From a virus: DNA of 64,000 nucleotides. The stretch lies in IMG/VR virus record IMGVR_UViG_3300019888_000002, positions 62,001 to 126,000 of that record; one strand, given 5' to 3'. A program made the translations under genes and the position numbers. Below are positions 23,262 to 37,702 of this stretch, one piece after another. Each line of letters opens with the position of its first letter. Within the stretch, counting starts at the first letter, position 1. A model generated the notes under the pieces. The model was not told where the DNA came from, searched no databases, and was given only the letters and a program-made list of their open reading frames with translations.

Positions 23262-23505
23262 GAAAGCCTCCGCAATTATGGAAGTATCGTTCCTCGTCCA
23301 ACTGCTCCTGTAGACGATCTGCTCGATCTCGTTCGGCGACAGCAAGGTTGCGCAGTTGCAGCATCGGCACGCGGTAGTCACCCTCGGGGTGAGTGCATCC
23401 CATCGGTAGACCACCGTCGCAGAGACCACAGACCGCGAGCCACGGATCGAACTCGGAAAGCTGCTCGTCCGTGGTCCGAGGCCGCTCACCGGCATCGTGG
23501 GTCAT
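23245..23505 (-). CDS. Cys-containing coiled-coil protein
   Basis: 86 aa. CGLCDGG ... CTHPEGDY is a zinc-like pattern; residues about 50-72 form a charged coiled coil (LAVAERDRADRLQEQLDEER). TGATG overlap sets the start. Function unknown. Confidence 0.7.
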   Translation of the reverse strand: MTHDAGERPRTTDEQLSEFDPWLAVCGLCDGGLPMGCTHPEGDYRVPMLQLRNLAVAERDRADRLQEQLDEERYFHNCGGFHAAHE

Positions 23506-23720
23506 CAGTCCACCTGAGTGTTCCGGTCGTCGGAGCCCTGGTACTCCCGCAGAATGTCGTCGTCGGAATAGATGTCGGCCATCCGCATGGACGACCCATC
23601 CGGCCCCGCAGCCTCCCGTTCCACCAACCCCCGCTCGTCGTCCAGCACATCGTCCAGGATGTGATCCTGCACGTACGAACTCGGTGACGGGGTCGACCCC
23701 CTACCCTCCGGACCGATCAT
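23505..23720 (-). CDS. Small acidic protein
   Basis: 71 aa, very acidic (DHILDDVLDDERGLVERE). ATGA overlap with the Acb2-like gene sets ATG 23720. Function unknown. Confidence 0.65.
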   Translation of the reverse strand: MIGPEGRGSTPSPSSYVQDHILDDVLDDERGLVEREAAGPDGSSMRMADIYSDDDILREYQGSDDRNTQVD

Positions 23721-24022
23721 CGGAACAGGTCCGGCTCTTCGAAATACCCGCTCCACGGTTCCACCGTCGGATCGAAACCCTCCGGCAGACCCTCCACCGC
23801 GATCGAAGCGTTGGACCACATGGCAGCCTGCTGAAGCGCGGTGAGCGCCAGATTCCGGTGTCGCCCGGGCCGGGTCATGTCCATCACGGTGACGGCCATG
23901 GCCTTGTACGAACGCCGGATCGTCTCGTGTGCCTTGACGCTGAGCGCGTTCGGCGGATGGTAATCGAACCGGTTGAGCACCTCGACCACCTCCTTGGCGC
24001 TGAACTCCTCCTCATTCGTCAC
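23717..24022 (-). CDS. Acb2/Tad1 hairpin-domain protein, candidate cyclic-nucleotide sponge
   Basis: 101 aa. The pattern FDYHPP ... AHETIRRSYKAMA ... PGRHRNLALTALQQ followed by AAMWSNASIA matches the short actinophage members of the Acb2/Tad1 hairpin family: two antiparallel helices, with the R-x-LALT-x-LxxAMxWxNAxIA stretch as the hallmark. Family members bind cyclic oligonucleotide signals and block CBASS and Thoeris defence. Binding and anti-defence activity here are inference from family pattern. Coupled by ATGA to the 71-aa gene. Confidence 0.75.
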   Translation of the reverse strand: MTNEEEFSAKEVVEVLNRFDYHPPNALSVKAHETIRRSYKAMAVTVMDMTRPGRHRNLALTALQQAAMWSNASIAVEGLPEGFDPTVEPWSGYFEEPDLFR

Positions 24023-24146
24023 CGTCGTCCCCCTCTTCGTCGTCGGTCTCGACCTCGGGTCCCCCGAGCAGAGCGTTACGGTGCTCCTCGGCCGTGGCGA
24101 GACGCTCCAACGCCTCGGCGATCCGGACCGCTGTCTCTTGGGTCAT
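24012..24146 (-). CDS. Small acidic protein
   Basis: 44 aa: a helix (MTQETAVRIAEALERLATAE) and an extremely acidic tail (VETDDEEGDDGDE). AGAAGGATTCGAA precedes ATG 24146, which overlaps the upstream stop. Acidic tails of this sort can mimic DNA, but nothing proves that here. Confidence 0.65.
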   Translation of the reverse strand: MTQETAVRIAEALERLATAEEHRNALLGGPEVETDDEEGDDGDE

Positions 24147-24316
24147 TTCGAATCCTTCTGCTTTGTGCACGGTTGTTGGTAGCCGTCGTCTTCGCATCCG
24201 CAATCCCGGCACCTGCGTCCGCGACCGAGCGTGGTCTTGCTCCACGGTTCCCAGTCGTGATCGCCCGAACCTTTGATCCGAGGAAGGCGTCCGTCGATAG
24301 TGAGGTGCTCGGTCAC
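24143..24316 (-). CDS. 57-aa Cys-rich protein, GTG start
   Basis: Begins VTEHLTIDGRLPRIKG and contains CRDCGCEDDGYQQPC, a four-Cys zinc-type cluster, in a basic background. GTG 24316 overlaps the stop of the 143-aa gene (GTGA) and its stop overlaps the next ATG; both overlaps support it. Confidence 0.65.
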   Translation of the reverse strand: MTEHLTIDGRLPRIKGSGDHDWEPWSKTTLGRGRRCRDCGCEDDGYQQPCTKQKDSK

Positions 24317-24744
24317 GGTGTCTTCACGTCCCCGCGAAAGGACGTGCGCCGTTCTTCGTCGGTGCTCAGTTCCCGCACGGTATAGGGATCGTGACCTGGT
24401 CCGTGATTGGGCGCAAAGGGCCTGAAATCGTCATCGAGCACGAACCACTCGCACGCCTCGTGCGTCTCCACCTCGATCACCCGGTCGAAGAGCCAGCGCC
24501 GCCACGACTGCTCGTTGTAGCTTGCGGCCGGAACGATGAAAAAGTGCAGCACACCCCGATTGATCTCGTGATGATAGGTGTCCGGCCCCACCACCTGAAT
24601 CGTGAGGGTCAAACCCTCGGACCCTTGTCCCCGATCGATCTCTCGAAGGTTGAAACACCAGTTGGCCTTGTACGTGAGCCGGGACACCAGGTCCGCCAGC
24701 GCCGTGGGGTACGGCGCGCTCTGAGTCATCGGCTGCTCCGGCAT
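24313..24744 (-). CDS. Protein of unknown function
   Basis: 143 aa. Beta-rich centre (GLTLTIQVVGPDTYHHEIN) and a C-terminal Glu/Asp-rich part. GGAGAACGGTG precedes ATG 24744, overlapping the upstream stop (TGATG). No domain recognised. Confidence 0.75.
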   Translation of the reverse strand: MPEQPMTQSAPYPTALADLVSRLTYKANWCFNLREIDRGQGSEGLTLTIQVVGPDTYHHEINRGVLHFFIVPAASYNEQSWRRWLFDRVIEVETHEACEWFVLDDDFRPFAPNHGPGHDPYTVRELSTDEERRTSFRGDVKTP

Positions 24745-25166
24745 CACCGTTCTCCTTCGGGCCGAATGTCGAAGGTCCGCTGAATCCAGCTGCCCCCCTC
24801 GTGGTCGACGGCCATCAACGCGACACCCTCCGAACTCGGCTGGAAGCCCGGAGTCAGAGACTGGGTGGAATGCCGCATCGCCTGCCGCAACGATCGCAGA
24901 TGATTGTCACAGGCCGTGTCGATGAGCGTCTCGAGATCACCCACCGGCATAGTCCCCTTCCGTTCCTCCTCGAGACTCTGGTGCAGCAGCAACGACAGCA
25001 CGGCCCGGATCAGGTCCCGCCGAGTGGACTCGGGACTCGGATAGTGCGGGAACGGACTCTTGCTCATCGGATCATCTTCCTCTCGACCCCCGACGGAAAC
25101 GACCCCCGGAACCCCCGTGCGGCCGCCCCAAACGGCCGCCCGAGCCTGTTCGGCGTCGGCGCTCAC
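24744..25166 (-). CDS. Protein of unknown function, GTG start
   Basis: 140 aa if GTG 25166 is used, which overlaps the upstream microgene stop (GTGA) and keeps the packing; ATG 25067 (MSKSPFPHYP, with GAGAGGAAGATG) would give 107 aa. The conserved-looking part is helical (RRDLIRAVLSLLLHQSLEEE). Function unknown. Confidence 0.65.
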   Translation of the reverse strand: MSADAEQARAAVWGGRTGVPGVVSVGGREEDDPMSKSPFPHYPSPESTRRDLIRAVLSLLLHQSLEEERKGTMPVGDLETLIDTACDNHLRSLRQAMRHSTQSLTPGFQPSSEGVALMAVDHEGGSWIQRTFDIRPEGER

Positions 25167-29853: not shown

Positions 29854-30264
29854 CTACGGAAGGATGAGCTTGCTCTTAGGGTCACCCAGGGTGCCGTCGG
29901 CGCGCAGTGTGCCCTCCTTGCCGTCGGCCGCACCACTCTGAATCTCACGGGACATCTGCTCGTGATCGATGGTGTAGTCCTTGGGGTCGATGCGGGCCTC
30001 GATGGCGATCGTCGGCAAGAAGTACAGGGTGTCCGAGTTCGGGTCCCCGTCCACATCCACATCCTTCCAATAGACCTTGGCAAGCAGGCCCAGAGCGGCG
30101 AAGCGATCCGGGACCTCGGCCTCGAACGCCTTGCTCGTCGTGTCCGTGAACGGCTTGAAGCCGTACTTGTTCTGAAGGTCGGCTGCCAGCTCACGGACCG
30201 AGTTCATCTCATTGGGGTACAGATCGATGCTCTCGGGTGGACCTGCTGTAGGCATCTGGGGCAT
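29854..30264 (-). CDS. Protein of unknown function
   Basis: 136 aa, acidic, alpha/beta. NSVRELAADLQNKYGFKPF is a helix; TLYFLPTIAIEARIDPKDY is strand-rich. Lies between the DUF932-like gene and the small-gene region. No domain recognised. Confidence 0.75.
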   Translation of the reverse strand: MPQMPTAGPPESIDLYPNEMNSVRELAADLQNKYGFKPFTDTTSKAFEAEVPDRFAALGLLAKVYWKDVDVDGDPNSDTLYFLPTIAIEARIDPKDYTIDHEQMSREIQSGAADGKEGTLRADGTLGDPKSKLILP

Positions 30265-33084: not shown

Positions 33085-33296
33085 ACGAGATCACTCTGTC
33101 CCAATACGGCAGCCTTGGTCTTGGTAGGGGTGACGTCGGCGGCATACCAGGTCACCGTGGCCCCCGACCACGAGCGCCCGAAGGCGGCAAACGTCACCGG
33201 ACCGGTATGCGGTCCCGCATGAGCAGAAGTCCCGGCGTTGGTGCATGTCACGACCACGGCGGTGCCGGGGAACGTCTTGGTTACTCCACACGCCAT
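33081..33296 (-). CDS. Small beta-sandwich-like protein downstream of tail fibre
   Basis: 71 aa: VTKTFPGTAVVVTCTNAGTS, then FGRSWSGATVTWYAADV, all strands. Start ATG 33296 overlaps the tail-fibre stop (TAATG). Possibly a tail-fibre associated or tip protein. Confidence 0.65.
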   Translation of the reverse strand: MACGVTKTFPGTAVVVTCTNAGTSAHAGPHTGPVTFAAFGRSWSGATVTWYAADVTPTKTKAAVLGQSDLV

Positions 33297-36200
33297 TATG
33301 CGTACCTGCCTCTCAGCTGGACATGAACAGGATCGGGAACCACGGCAGTGCCCTTGGTGAAGTACGCCCGGATCACCGCATTGGCCGCGCACGCCTGTGG
33401 CGTACCCAGGGTCGTGATGATGTTGTTCGAACCCACAGTGAGCGTGATGGTCGAGAGCAAGGTGCCCTGTGTGGTTGCGGTGCCGGAGTAGATGGCGATG
33501 GTCAGGTTTCCGGTGCCCACCGTCCCGGCCAGGTTGCCGATGCGCACCCAGATCGCATCCAGGATGACGCCCGCAGCGGCGATTCCCGGCTCCACCGCGA
33601 TACCACCGGGCATGTCGTTGTAGCCGTCCACGATGGAGACGGAGTTGCACACCATTTCCGGGCACCACGGAATGGTGGCATTGTCCACCTTGGCATTGAG
33701 CGCCGTCTGCTGTGCGGTACTGACCGGCTTGCCTGCATCGGAGGTGTTGTCGACACTTCCCAGACCCACATCACCCTTGACGATTCCGGTCGGTGTGACA
33801 AGAGCGGGAGATGTGGCGAAAACCGCTGCGCCGGAACCCGTTTCGTCCGACAGGACGCCTTTCAGTTGTGCCGAAGTCGTCGCGGCGAACTGTGACAACG
33901 GGTTGGCGACCAGGGCATCTCCGCCACCGGCAGGCAACGTCTGCCAGGTCTTGTCGCCACGCCAGTACTGCCCGGTGGTACCCGCCGCGATAGTCGGTTC
34001 CTTGGTCGCATCGGCCACGGTGACGTTCGCCGTGCCGTCGAAAGCAACCCCGTTGATGTTTCGAGCGGTAGCAAGTTTGGTGGCCGAGGCAGCATTGCCC
34101 GACGTGCTCTGATTCAGCGTCGGGAACGTGTTCGTACCGCTGGTGAGGTCCTTGTTCGTCAGGGCTACGGCTGCCGCGTTCTTGGTGGTGTCGCTCGTGT
34201 TATCGACATTGCCGAGGCCCACGTCACCCTTGACGATTCCGGTCGGGGTGTTGACGACAGGGCTGGTCAGGGTCTTGTTGGTGAGCGTGGCCACGGCCGC
34301 GTTCTTGACGGCATCGGAGGTGTTGTCCACATTGGCCAGACCGACGGCTGTCTTGTCCAAGGTCTGCCAGGTCTTGTCACCCCGGTAGTACTGGGCACTG
34401 GTTCCCGCCGCAAGCGTGGGTTCCTTGGTGGCGATGCTGGTGGCCTGCGCGGTGCTGACCGGCTTGTTCGCGTCGGACGTGTTGTCCACATTGGCGAGAC
34501 CGACATCGGTCTTACCGAGAACGACGGCCCCCACCTGAGAGTTGACCGAGGTGACCACATCGGTCGAAGAGGACAGGGCACGCCAGTTACCGAGCACCGA
34601 AGGATCGGCTGCCATCAGCATGAACGTGCCTGCGCCGTCGGAACGCACAGCCAGATCGCCCGGCTGGACCTGACCCGTGGTCAACGCCAACATGGCAGCC
34701 TGGGACGCCACAGCTACCGAAGTGATCAACGAGAGGGGCGGCATCTGACTCGTCGGGATGATGCCGCCCACGAGATCGGCCTTGGCTGCCAATGCAGTGG
34801 TGGTGGCAGTCGAGACGGGCTTGTTCGCATCGGAGGTGTTGTCGGCGTTGCCGAGACCGACGGCTGTCTTGTCGAGCGTGGCCCAGGTCTTGTCACCCTT
34901 GTAGTACTGCGCAGTCGTTCCGGCCGCAACAGCAGGTTCCTTGGTCGCGTCGGCGATCGTGATGGCTGCGGTGCCGTCGAAGTTCACCCCGTTGATGGCC
35001 CGCGCCGTCGCCAACTTGGTGGCGGAAGCCGCGTTGCCCGTCGTGCTCTGGTTCAGGGTCGGGAAGGTGTTCGTGCCGGAGGTCAGGTCCTTGTTCGTCA
35101 GCGCGACAGCGGCAGCGTTCTTCGTGACATCCGAGGTGTTGTCGGCCGAACCGAGACCGATCGAAGCCTTGTCGTGGGTAGCCCAGGTTTTGTCTCCCCG
35201 GTAATACTGACCTGCGGTTCCGGCCGCAAGGGTCGGTTCCTTGGTGGCGATGCTCGCAGCCTGCGCGGTAGAGACGGGCTTGTTCGCATCGGAAGTATTG
35301 TCCACATTCGAAAGACCGACAGCCGTCTTGTCCAGAGTGGCCCAGCTCTTGTCACCCTTCCAATACTGCGCGGTGGTCCCGGCCGTGATGGACGCTTCTT
35401 TACCGTTGAGCGCGGTCTGGGTTGCCGTGCTGACCGGCTTGTTGACATCGGAGGTGTTGTCCGCGTTCCCGAGGCCGACATCGGCCTTGCCGAGCACGAC
35501 AGCACCGACCATGGCATTAACGCTCGTGACGACGTCGGTCGAGCTGGAGAGCGCCCGCCAGTTTCCCAGCACCGAGGGGTCGGCTGCCATCAACATGAAC
35601 GTGCCCGCGCCGTCGCTGCGCACGGCCAAGTCGCCTGGCTGCACCTGTCCCGTCGTCAGCGCCAGCATCGCCGCCTGACTGGCGACCGGCACCGACGTGA
35701 TGAGCGAGAGCGGCGGCATCTGACTCGTGGGGATGATTCCCCCCACCAGGTCCGCCTTCGCCGCGAGCGCGGTCGTGACAGCACTCGAGACCGGCTTGTT
35801 TGCGTCACTGGTGTTGTCCACATTGCCGAGGCCGACGTCGGCCTTGACCAGAGTGACCACACCCTGTTTGCCCGCCACCGAGGTGACCAGATTGGTGGCG
35901 GGGTCACCCGCTGGTCCCTGGATACCCTGAGGACCGGTGGCCCCGGTGTTCCCGGCCGGACCCTGTGCACCGGTCGAGCCGGTAGTGCCCTGAATACCCT
36001 GGGCTCCGGTGGCCCCCGTGGTGCCGGTGGCACCGGCCGGACCGGTCGGACCGTCGGCCCCCGTCGGCCCGGTGTCCCCGATCGGGCCTTGTGCTCCGGT
36101 GGCCCCGGTCGGACCGGTGTTCCCGATCGGACCTTGTGCCCCGGTGGTGCCGGTGTCACCCTTGACACCCTGAATGCCCTGCGAGCCTGCGGGACCGGTG

Positions 36201-37702
36201 GCCCCCGTGGTACCAGTGAGACCGGTGTCTCCGGTGAGACCGATCGGACCTTGCACGCCGTCGGGACCGACAGGCCCGACATCACCCGTGTCCCCTTTGA
36301 CACCCTGAGGACCTGCTACACCTTGTGCCCCTGTAGGACCGGCCGCACCTGTCGGGCCGGTAGCTCCAATGGAACCGGTGGTGCCGGTCGGTCCGATGGT
36401 GCCTTGCGGACCTGCGGGGCCGACATCACCCTGGGCTCCGGTGACACCGATGGGACCGGTCGGACCGTCGGCTCCGACGTCACCTCTGGCTCCCGCCGTA
36501 CCTTGCGGACCGGTGAGGCCGATCGAGCCCTGGTCACCTGGGTCACCCTTGTCACCCTTGTCTCCCTTGAACGGGACACCAGCGGACTCGATGGGGAAAG
36601 AGGTACCGGACCAGACATAGAGCAGACCACTGGTGTTGACCAGATAACCCTTGCCGGAGTCGGTCGAAGTAAGAGTAGTGGGGAGGTCGGCATAGGTGTC
36701 CACGCTTCCGGCGAGGTTGATGCCGGAACCCTGGGCTCCGGTGTCTCCCTTGACACCCTGAATGCCCTGCGGCCCGATGGGACCGACATCACCCTGGGAA
36801 CCGGTAGGGCCACTCGGGCCGATGGGACCGAGGTCGCCCTGTGGGCCTGGTGATCCCGTGGCTCCGGTCAGGCCGATGGTGCCTTGAGGGCCTGTAGCGC
36901 CGATGGGACCGGTGGTGCCCTGCGGACCTGCGGCCCCGGTGTTGCCGGTGGTACCGATGGGACCCTGAGCACCGGTTGTGCCCTGTGGGCCTGACGACCC
37001 GGTGGCTCCGGTGGGGCCGACAGCGCCCTGGACTCCGGTGAGACCCTGAATGCCCTGATTGCCGGTGTCGCCCTTGTCGCCCTTGACCCCGGTAGCACCG
37101 ATAGGACCTTGCGGACCGGTGTTCCCCGTGGGTCCCTGAAGACCAGTGTCGCCCTTGGGTCCCTGGCTTCCGGTGGGGCCGGTGGTCCCGGTCGGACCGG
37201 TGGTGCCCTGGATACCCTGGGAGCCGGGGAGACCGGTGTCACCCTTGATGCCTTGCGGACCTGCGAAACCGATCGGCCCCATAGATCCTTGCGGACCGAA
37301 CGGACCTACAGCCCCCTGATCTCCGGTGTCCCCCTTGGTGCCCTGAATACCCTGGGGTCCGAGCGGACCGATGACACCCTGCGGTCCCGGTACCCCCTGA
37401 GGACCGAGTGGGCCGATCAGCCCCTGAAGTCCTTGTGGCCCCTGACTACCGACGTCACCCTGCGGCCCCTGTGCTCCGGTGTCTCCTCGAGGACCGGTGA
37501 GCCCGAGTGGTCCGACAGGACCAACATCACCCTTGACACCCTTCGGGCCTTGCGGACCGATGTATGCCTCCCCGTTGGGGAGGTACCCGAGCCGCTCCGG
37601 GTCGATCGGCACAGGGGGGTGTGTCGGTGACGGAGTCGGCGATTCGGGAGATGTGTCCCCGGGTGGGGTGGGACCCTCGCCCGTGAATTCGTTCCATCCC
37701 AC
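33296..37702 (-). CDS. Collagen-like tail fibre, GTG start
   Basis: 1468 aa. Residues about 47-590 are Gly-x-y triplets (GPQG, GDTG, GATG types), a collagen-like triple helix, interrupted once near 327-380 by a small beta region. From about 600 to 1340, nine copies of a [16 protein letters not shown]-type module alternate with [18 protein letters not shown] units, and a segment of about 130 residues ([10 protein letters not shown] to TDVVTSVN) occurs twice. The last ~130 residues are a beta-rich tip. GAGGGGAGAAACTTC precedes GTG 37702. Trimeric adhesion fibre is the expected form. Confidence 0.9.

Follow-up and report, generated by a model that had tools for sequence, protein, structure and literature searches.

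A divergent Acb2-type hairpin gene and likely cyclic-nucleotide sponge in a large actinobacterial myovirus

The locus and its virus

The locus is a run of small overlapping ORFs on the minus strand of the window, the whole stretch of 64,000 nucleotides analysed here, which corresponds to bases 62001-126000 of a virus record of 131,157 bases. Among them is an ORF of 101 amino acids, found at the place given by the initial annotation, where it had been proposed as a member of the Acb2/Tad1 family (Table 1). This ORF overlaps the preceding one by 11 bases and the following one by 4 bases, and carries a purine-rich GAAGAGGGGGAC immediately upstream of its GTG; a simple test of codon positions puts its GC3 at 0.82.

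Table 1 Features of the acb2-type locus, in window positions
Feature	Position	Strand	Details and evidence
Acb2-type hairpin protein (predicted)	23717..24022	(-)	101 aa, GTG start; PF24729 E 2.7e-13, AlphaFold2 mean pLDDT 86, 61-row alignment
Hairpin domain proper, residues 20-76, including Y21, R36, R54, T61 and N71	23795..23965	(-)	Pfam match 20-75; column counts, 151 relatives
Likely ribosome-binding stretch, purine-rich (CGACGAAGAGGGGGACGACG), within the end of the preceding ORF	24023..24042	(-)	Sequence
Following ORF, 71 aa, acidic (pI 4.05, 18 D/E); 4-base overlap with the acb2-type gene	23505..23720	(-)	
Preceding ORF, 44 aa, pI 4.05, acidic tail; weak PHROG matches	24012..24146	(-)	
57-aa ORF with four Cys, unrecognised	24143..24316	(-)	
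Peptide SYVQDHILDD inside the 23505-23720 ORF	23649..23678	(-)	L012 counterpart L012:4439-4468 (+)

The core genes of the window include a DNA polymerase, a primase, a DnaB-like helicase and a baseplate wedge, and the baseplate protein is 64% identical to that of Rhodococcus phage Finch and 63.5% identical to that of Gordonia phage Stormageddon. By these core genes and the baseplate identity, the virus is placed among the large actinobacterial myoviruses as kin of these two phages, and its host is presumably actinobacterial. A DNA-level search of a 24-kb region against phage records returned no match. The left half of the window consists of a long series of small minus-strand ORFs, mostly overlapping and of unrecognised function, similar to a series present in Finch. 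On the same strand, positions 33296-37702 encode a protein of 1468 amino acids with matches to numerous families of phage tail fibres and collagen-like minor tail proteins.

Family membership and predicted fold

The family assignment is borne out by the Pfam model PF24729 (Acb2/Tad1, hairpin domain), which matches residues 20-75 far above chance, scoring 50.3 bits where the curated cut-off is 27, and whose gene occurs as a single copy in the whole 131-kb record. When the window protein was left out of the profile and every stop-to-stop ORF in the window was scanned, 23717-24022 alone scored above threshold (E 1.9e-25). PHROG 1454, a group of unknown function, also matches the protein (E 3.5e-15), and PF24729 likewise recognises T4 Acb2 as encoded in the T4 record (Vs.4). 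Alignment-based searches were needed because neither a single-sequence search of viral contigs nor phmmer against the PDB gave a match for the 101-aa protein. With a 61-sequence profile, the solved "Acb2 homolog 43" (9PTQ) was matched at E 5e-10 and the CbTad1 hairpin at E 9e-5, while the direct profile match to T4 Acb2 was weak (E 0.042; hhalign probability 32%).

Relatives are numerous and divergent. tblastn found them in 284 phage records, mainly of Mycobacterium, Paenibacillus and Gordonia phages, all below 60% identity and, among the matches listed, nearly all annotated as hypothetical; alignment-guided scans gave 251 relatives from viral contigs, and 99 more came from bacterial genomes of Actinomycetota, Bacillota, Thermodesulfobacteriota and other groups. 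Aligned with 60 of these relatives, the window protein shows about 27-46% identity to them. The distribution is uneven: the PF24729 gene was undetected in Finch, Stormageddon, RedWattleHog and Mycobacterium phage Alice, and is present in a metagenomic viral contig (L012) whose baseplate protein is 62% identical to that of the window. The two acb2-type proteins share 46-52% identity, and in a phylogenetic tree the window protein groups with L012 (99/86) and then with L014 (99/94). Since this tree has few columns, long branches and unsettled bootstrap values, we use this grouping only, and not its placements of T4, PaP2 or 9PTQ. Another viral contig carries two different acb2-type ORFs in tandem (L054:3947-4441; tree rows L054_3920 and L054_4223), possibly a pair of sponges.

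AlphaFold2 predicts helices at residues 9-19, 26-49 and 54-77, with pLDDT above 90 across most of the hairpin and a low-confidence tail at residues 78-101. This is the helical hairpin that had been expected, with a short leading helix, and its helix plan agrees with the Acb2 protomer as described (PMC10419184, PMC12043709). In a viral structure library, the best 13 matches were Acb2/Tad1 hairpin proteins, except for one nameless entry. In the PDB library, T4 Acb2 with cGAMP (7UQ2) ranked at the top, with a weak and non-significant score (E 3.4), and the monomer fold comparison gave zero significant matches; a weak match is expected here, because a small generic hairpin is being compared as a monomer.

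Comparison with solved sponges places the protein more precisely. T4 Acb2 (7UQ2) and PaP2 Acb2 (8H2J, 8IXZ) likewise have protomers built from a short helix and two long ones, and their Tyr, Lys/Arg and Thr contact positions align with its own, although pairwise similarity is very low and their loop between the long helices is about 20 residues longer. The Acb2 homolog of 9PTQ, an entry with six chains, is likewise hairpin-only and of similar length (76 aa). Both it and the window protein carry FDxH, Lys or Arg at residue 36, GR at 53-54 and T at 61; in place of Y21, W69 and N71, the marks of the actinophage branch, 9PTQ has Thr, Phe and Thr. In the CbTad1 hairpin (7UAV, 8SMD), the motif REN.CALTHVEEALMWMN aligns with RHRNLALTALQQAAMWSN of the window protein. 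Tad1, however, has an extra N-terminal domain of four beta strands, whose loops help to form the gcADPR pocket (PMC12043709). This domain is missing from the window protein, where 19 residues, predicted as coil and one helix with zero strands, precede the hairpin. The modelled architecture is for this reason of the Acb2 type, though the hairpin sequence looks nearer to that of Tad1 than to that of T4 Acb2.

Putative ligand-contact residues and the proposed sponge function

We aligned 151 relatives with T4 Acb2, PaP2 Acb2, 9PTQ and the CbTad1 hairpin to compare individual residues. Y21 aligns with Y8 of T4 and Y11 of Pseudomonas Acb2, and Y or F occupies this position in 130 of the 151 relatives. 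R36, kept in 149, aligns with T4 K23 and with Pseudomonas K26; in the characterised proteins these Tyr and Lys residues belong to the dinucleotide pocket. R54, also kept in 149, aligns with R67 of Pseudomonas Acb2, a residue of its trinucleotide pocket, and T61, kept in 142, aligns with T4 T68. The window protein is atypical of its family at H55 (E in 139/151) and V76 (R in 134/151). In T4 Acb2, Y8A abolishes function (PMC12657218, PMC12657230), T68M lowers binding (PMC12657230), and F82 stacks on the base (PMC12657218). This aromatic stacking residue is absent from the window protein, which has A75 at the position, and the Arg of position 54, present in PaP2, is in turn missing from T4 Acb2. 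At the F82 position PaP2 Acb2, solved with 3'3'-cGAMP (8H2J), likewise has Ala; A75 does not count against Acb2 membership for this reason, and the aromatic residue is a trait of T4, not of the whole family. The residue matches thus support a working ligand site, short of proof.

From family membership and these conserved residues we infer that the gene encodes an Acb2-type sponge, with a probability of about 0.78; sequestration of cyclic nucleotides by the 101-aa protein is likely on this evidence. The small all-helical protein would probably assemble into the Acb2 hexamer, which during infection would bind cyclic di- and/or trinucleotides made by CBASS enzymes of the host, tightly and without cutting them, so that the CBASS effectors would stay off. 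As ligands, cyclic trinucleotides held through the near-invariant R54 would be our first guess, and cyclic dinucleotides held through Y21 and R36 the second. Among 101 genomes sampled from the order of Rhodococcus, 12 carry SMODS nucleotidyltransferases, signal-making enzymes of the CBASS type. A search of the same order for the Thoeris STALD domain gave no match, but its control searches were equally silent, so that this result carries no weight. Anti-CBASS action may be named as the first expectation and anti-Thoeris action as a lesser one. Of the anti-CBASS/anti-Thoeris sponge that the initial annotation had put forward, the family and the fold hold, and the lack of the Tad1 beta domain weakens the anti-Thoeris part.

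The gene is a divergent further member of a known family and reveals no new kind of system; it adds to the widespread hairpin sponges one from a large actinobacterial myovirus. Annotations as CBASS antagonists already exist for similar genes of actinophages. "Cyclic oligonucleotide sequestration proteins" are annotated in the cluster E mycobacteriophages Xandras and BigBubba (PMC11953737), and gp57 of Microbacterium phage Statler is annotated as cyclic-oligonucleotide sequestering / Acb2 (PMC13348362). These phages belong to groups other than that of the window virus, and the function is an annotation there too. Phages of the cluster E type (e.g., NelitzaMV) have detectable relatives of the window gene with the same predicted function. 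Any member of this branch could serve to test the annotation, and our alignment yields a list of residues for doing so.

A helical hairpin is a generic fold, and the protein might have kept it for another phage role, such as packaging, assembly or replication, in which no immune signal is sequestered. In several mycobacterial and Arthrobacter phages a homologue lies a few genes from the terminase, and we found published binding data for no member of the actinophage branch. Nevertheless, the positions that correspond to ligand contacts are among the most conserved of the protein, and the gene is patchy in its occurrence and varies in location from phage to phage, resembling an accessory gene and not a core structural one, all of which makes such a role unlikely. 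That the protein acts mainly on gcADPR as an anti-Thoeris sponge, in the manner of Tad1, would agree with the joining of Tad1 and Acb2 in one Pfam hairpin family, and with a family profile that is nearer to the CbTad1 hairpin than to T4 Acb2 in searches that differ in size. The missing four-stranded N-terminal domain argues against this action, which we consider very unlikely.

Neighbouring ORFs and a shared downstream peptide

The neighbours described in the initial annotation all exist: both acidic ORFs share the same pI, and "Cys-rich" is a fair but mild term for the third, with its four Cys. Their proposed role as further anti-defence factors found no backing: none of them matches a curated family above its cut-off, and relatives show no conserved operon. 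A Tse2 ADP-ribosyltransferase match to the 23505-23720 ORF (E 0.0048; 18 bits, below the cut-off of 26.6) was rejected as probably due to chance in a short, acidic and compositionally biased protein. Gene order around the acb2-type gene differs between the window and L012, where this gene follows a homologue of the window ORF 29854-30264, about 3.5 kb separate it from the homologue of 24012-24146, and homologues of the other neighbours are scattered and not grouped with it. The neighbours therefore do not form a conserved operon.

One element is nonetheless shared by the two phages, in that the ORF immediately after the acb2-type gene contains the identical peptide SYVQDHILDD in the window and in L012, whereas the remainder of these two ORFs is unrelated in protein sequence. 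In alignment, the longer PSSYVQDHILDD spans 12 codons with five base differences, all of them synonymous, which points to selection on the peptide, as a lead from two cases. The core of PSSYVQDHILDD was found in one contig only of the viral collection and had no match in phage records. In this phage lineage, the acb2-type gene might pair with the following ORF as a two-gene module, the PSSYVQDHILDD peptide of the second product cooperating with the sponge, for example by recruiting or regulating it, or by countering a sponge-sensing host guard system such as Panoptes; we regard this as a highly improbable arrangement. The same peptide, with its synonymous changes only and its place directly after the acb2-type gene, together with the series of small overlapping unrecognised ORFs, could also speak for an anti-defence island whose small neighbours are further counter-defence factors. 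Yet Pfam gave no match over cut-off for 27 neighbouring ORFs, the Tad2 family is absent from the whole record, the L012 homologues of the other neighbours are scattered, and long series of small unrecognised ORFs are the norm for this phage group, Finch being an example, leaving only a slim chance for such an island.

No link to the acb2-type gene was seen for the ORF at 24313-24747 of the window (minus strand, 144 aa), which matches PHROG 1540 (E 1.1e-20) and shares about 40-45% identity with a hypothetical protein that occurs in 174 Mycobacterium phages and adjoins lysin A in Shandong1.
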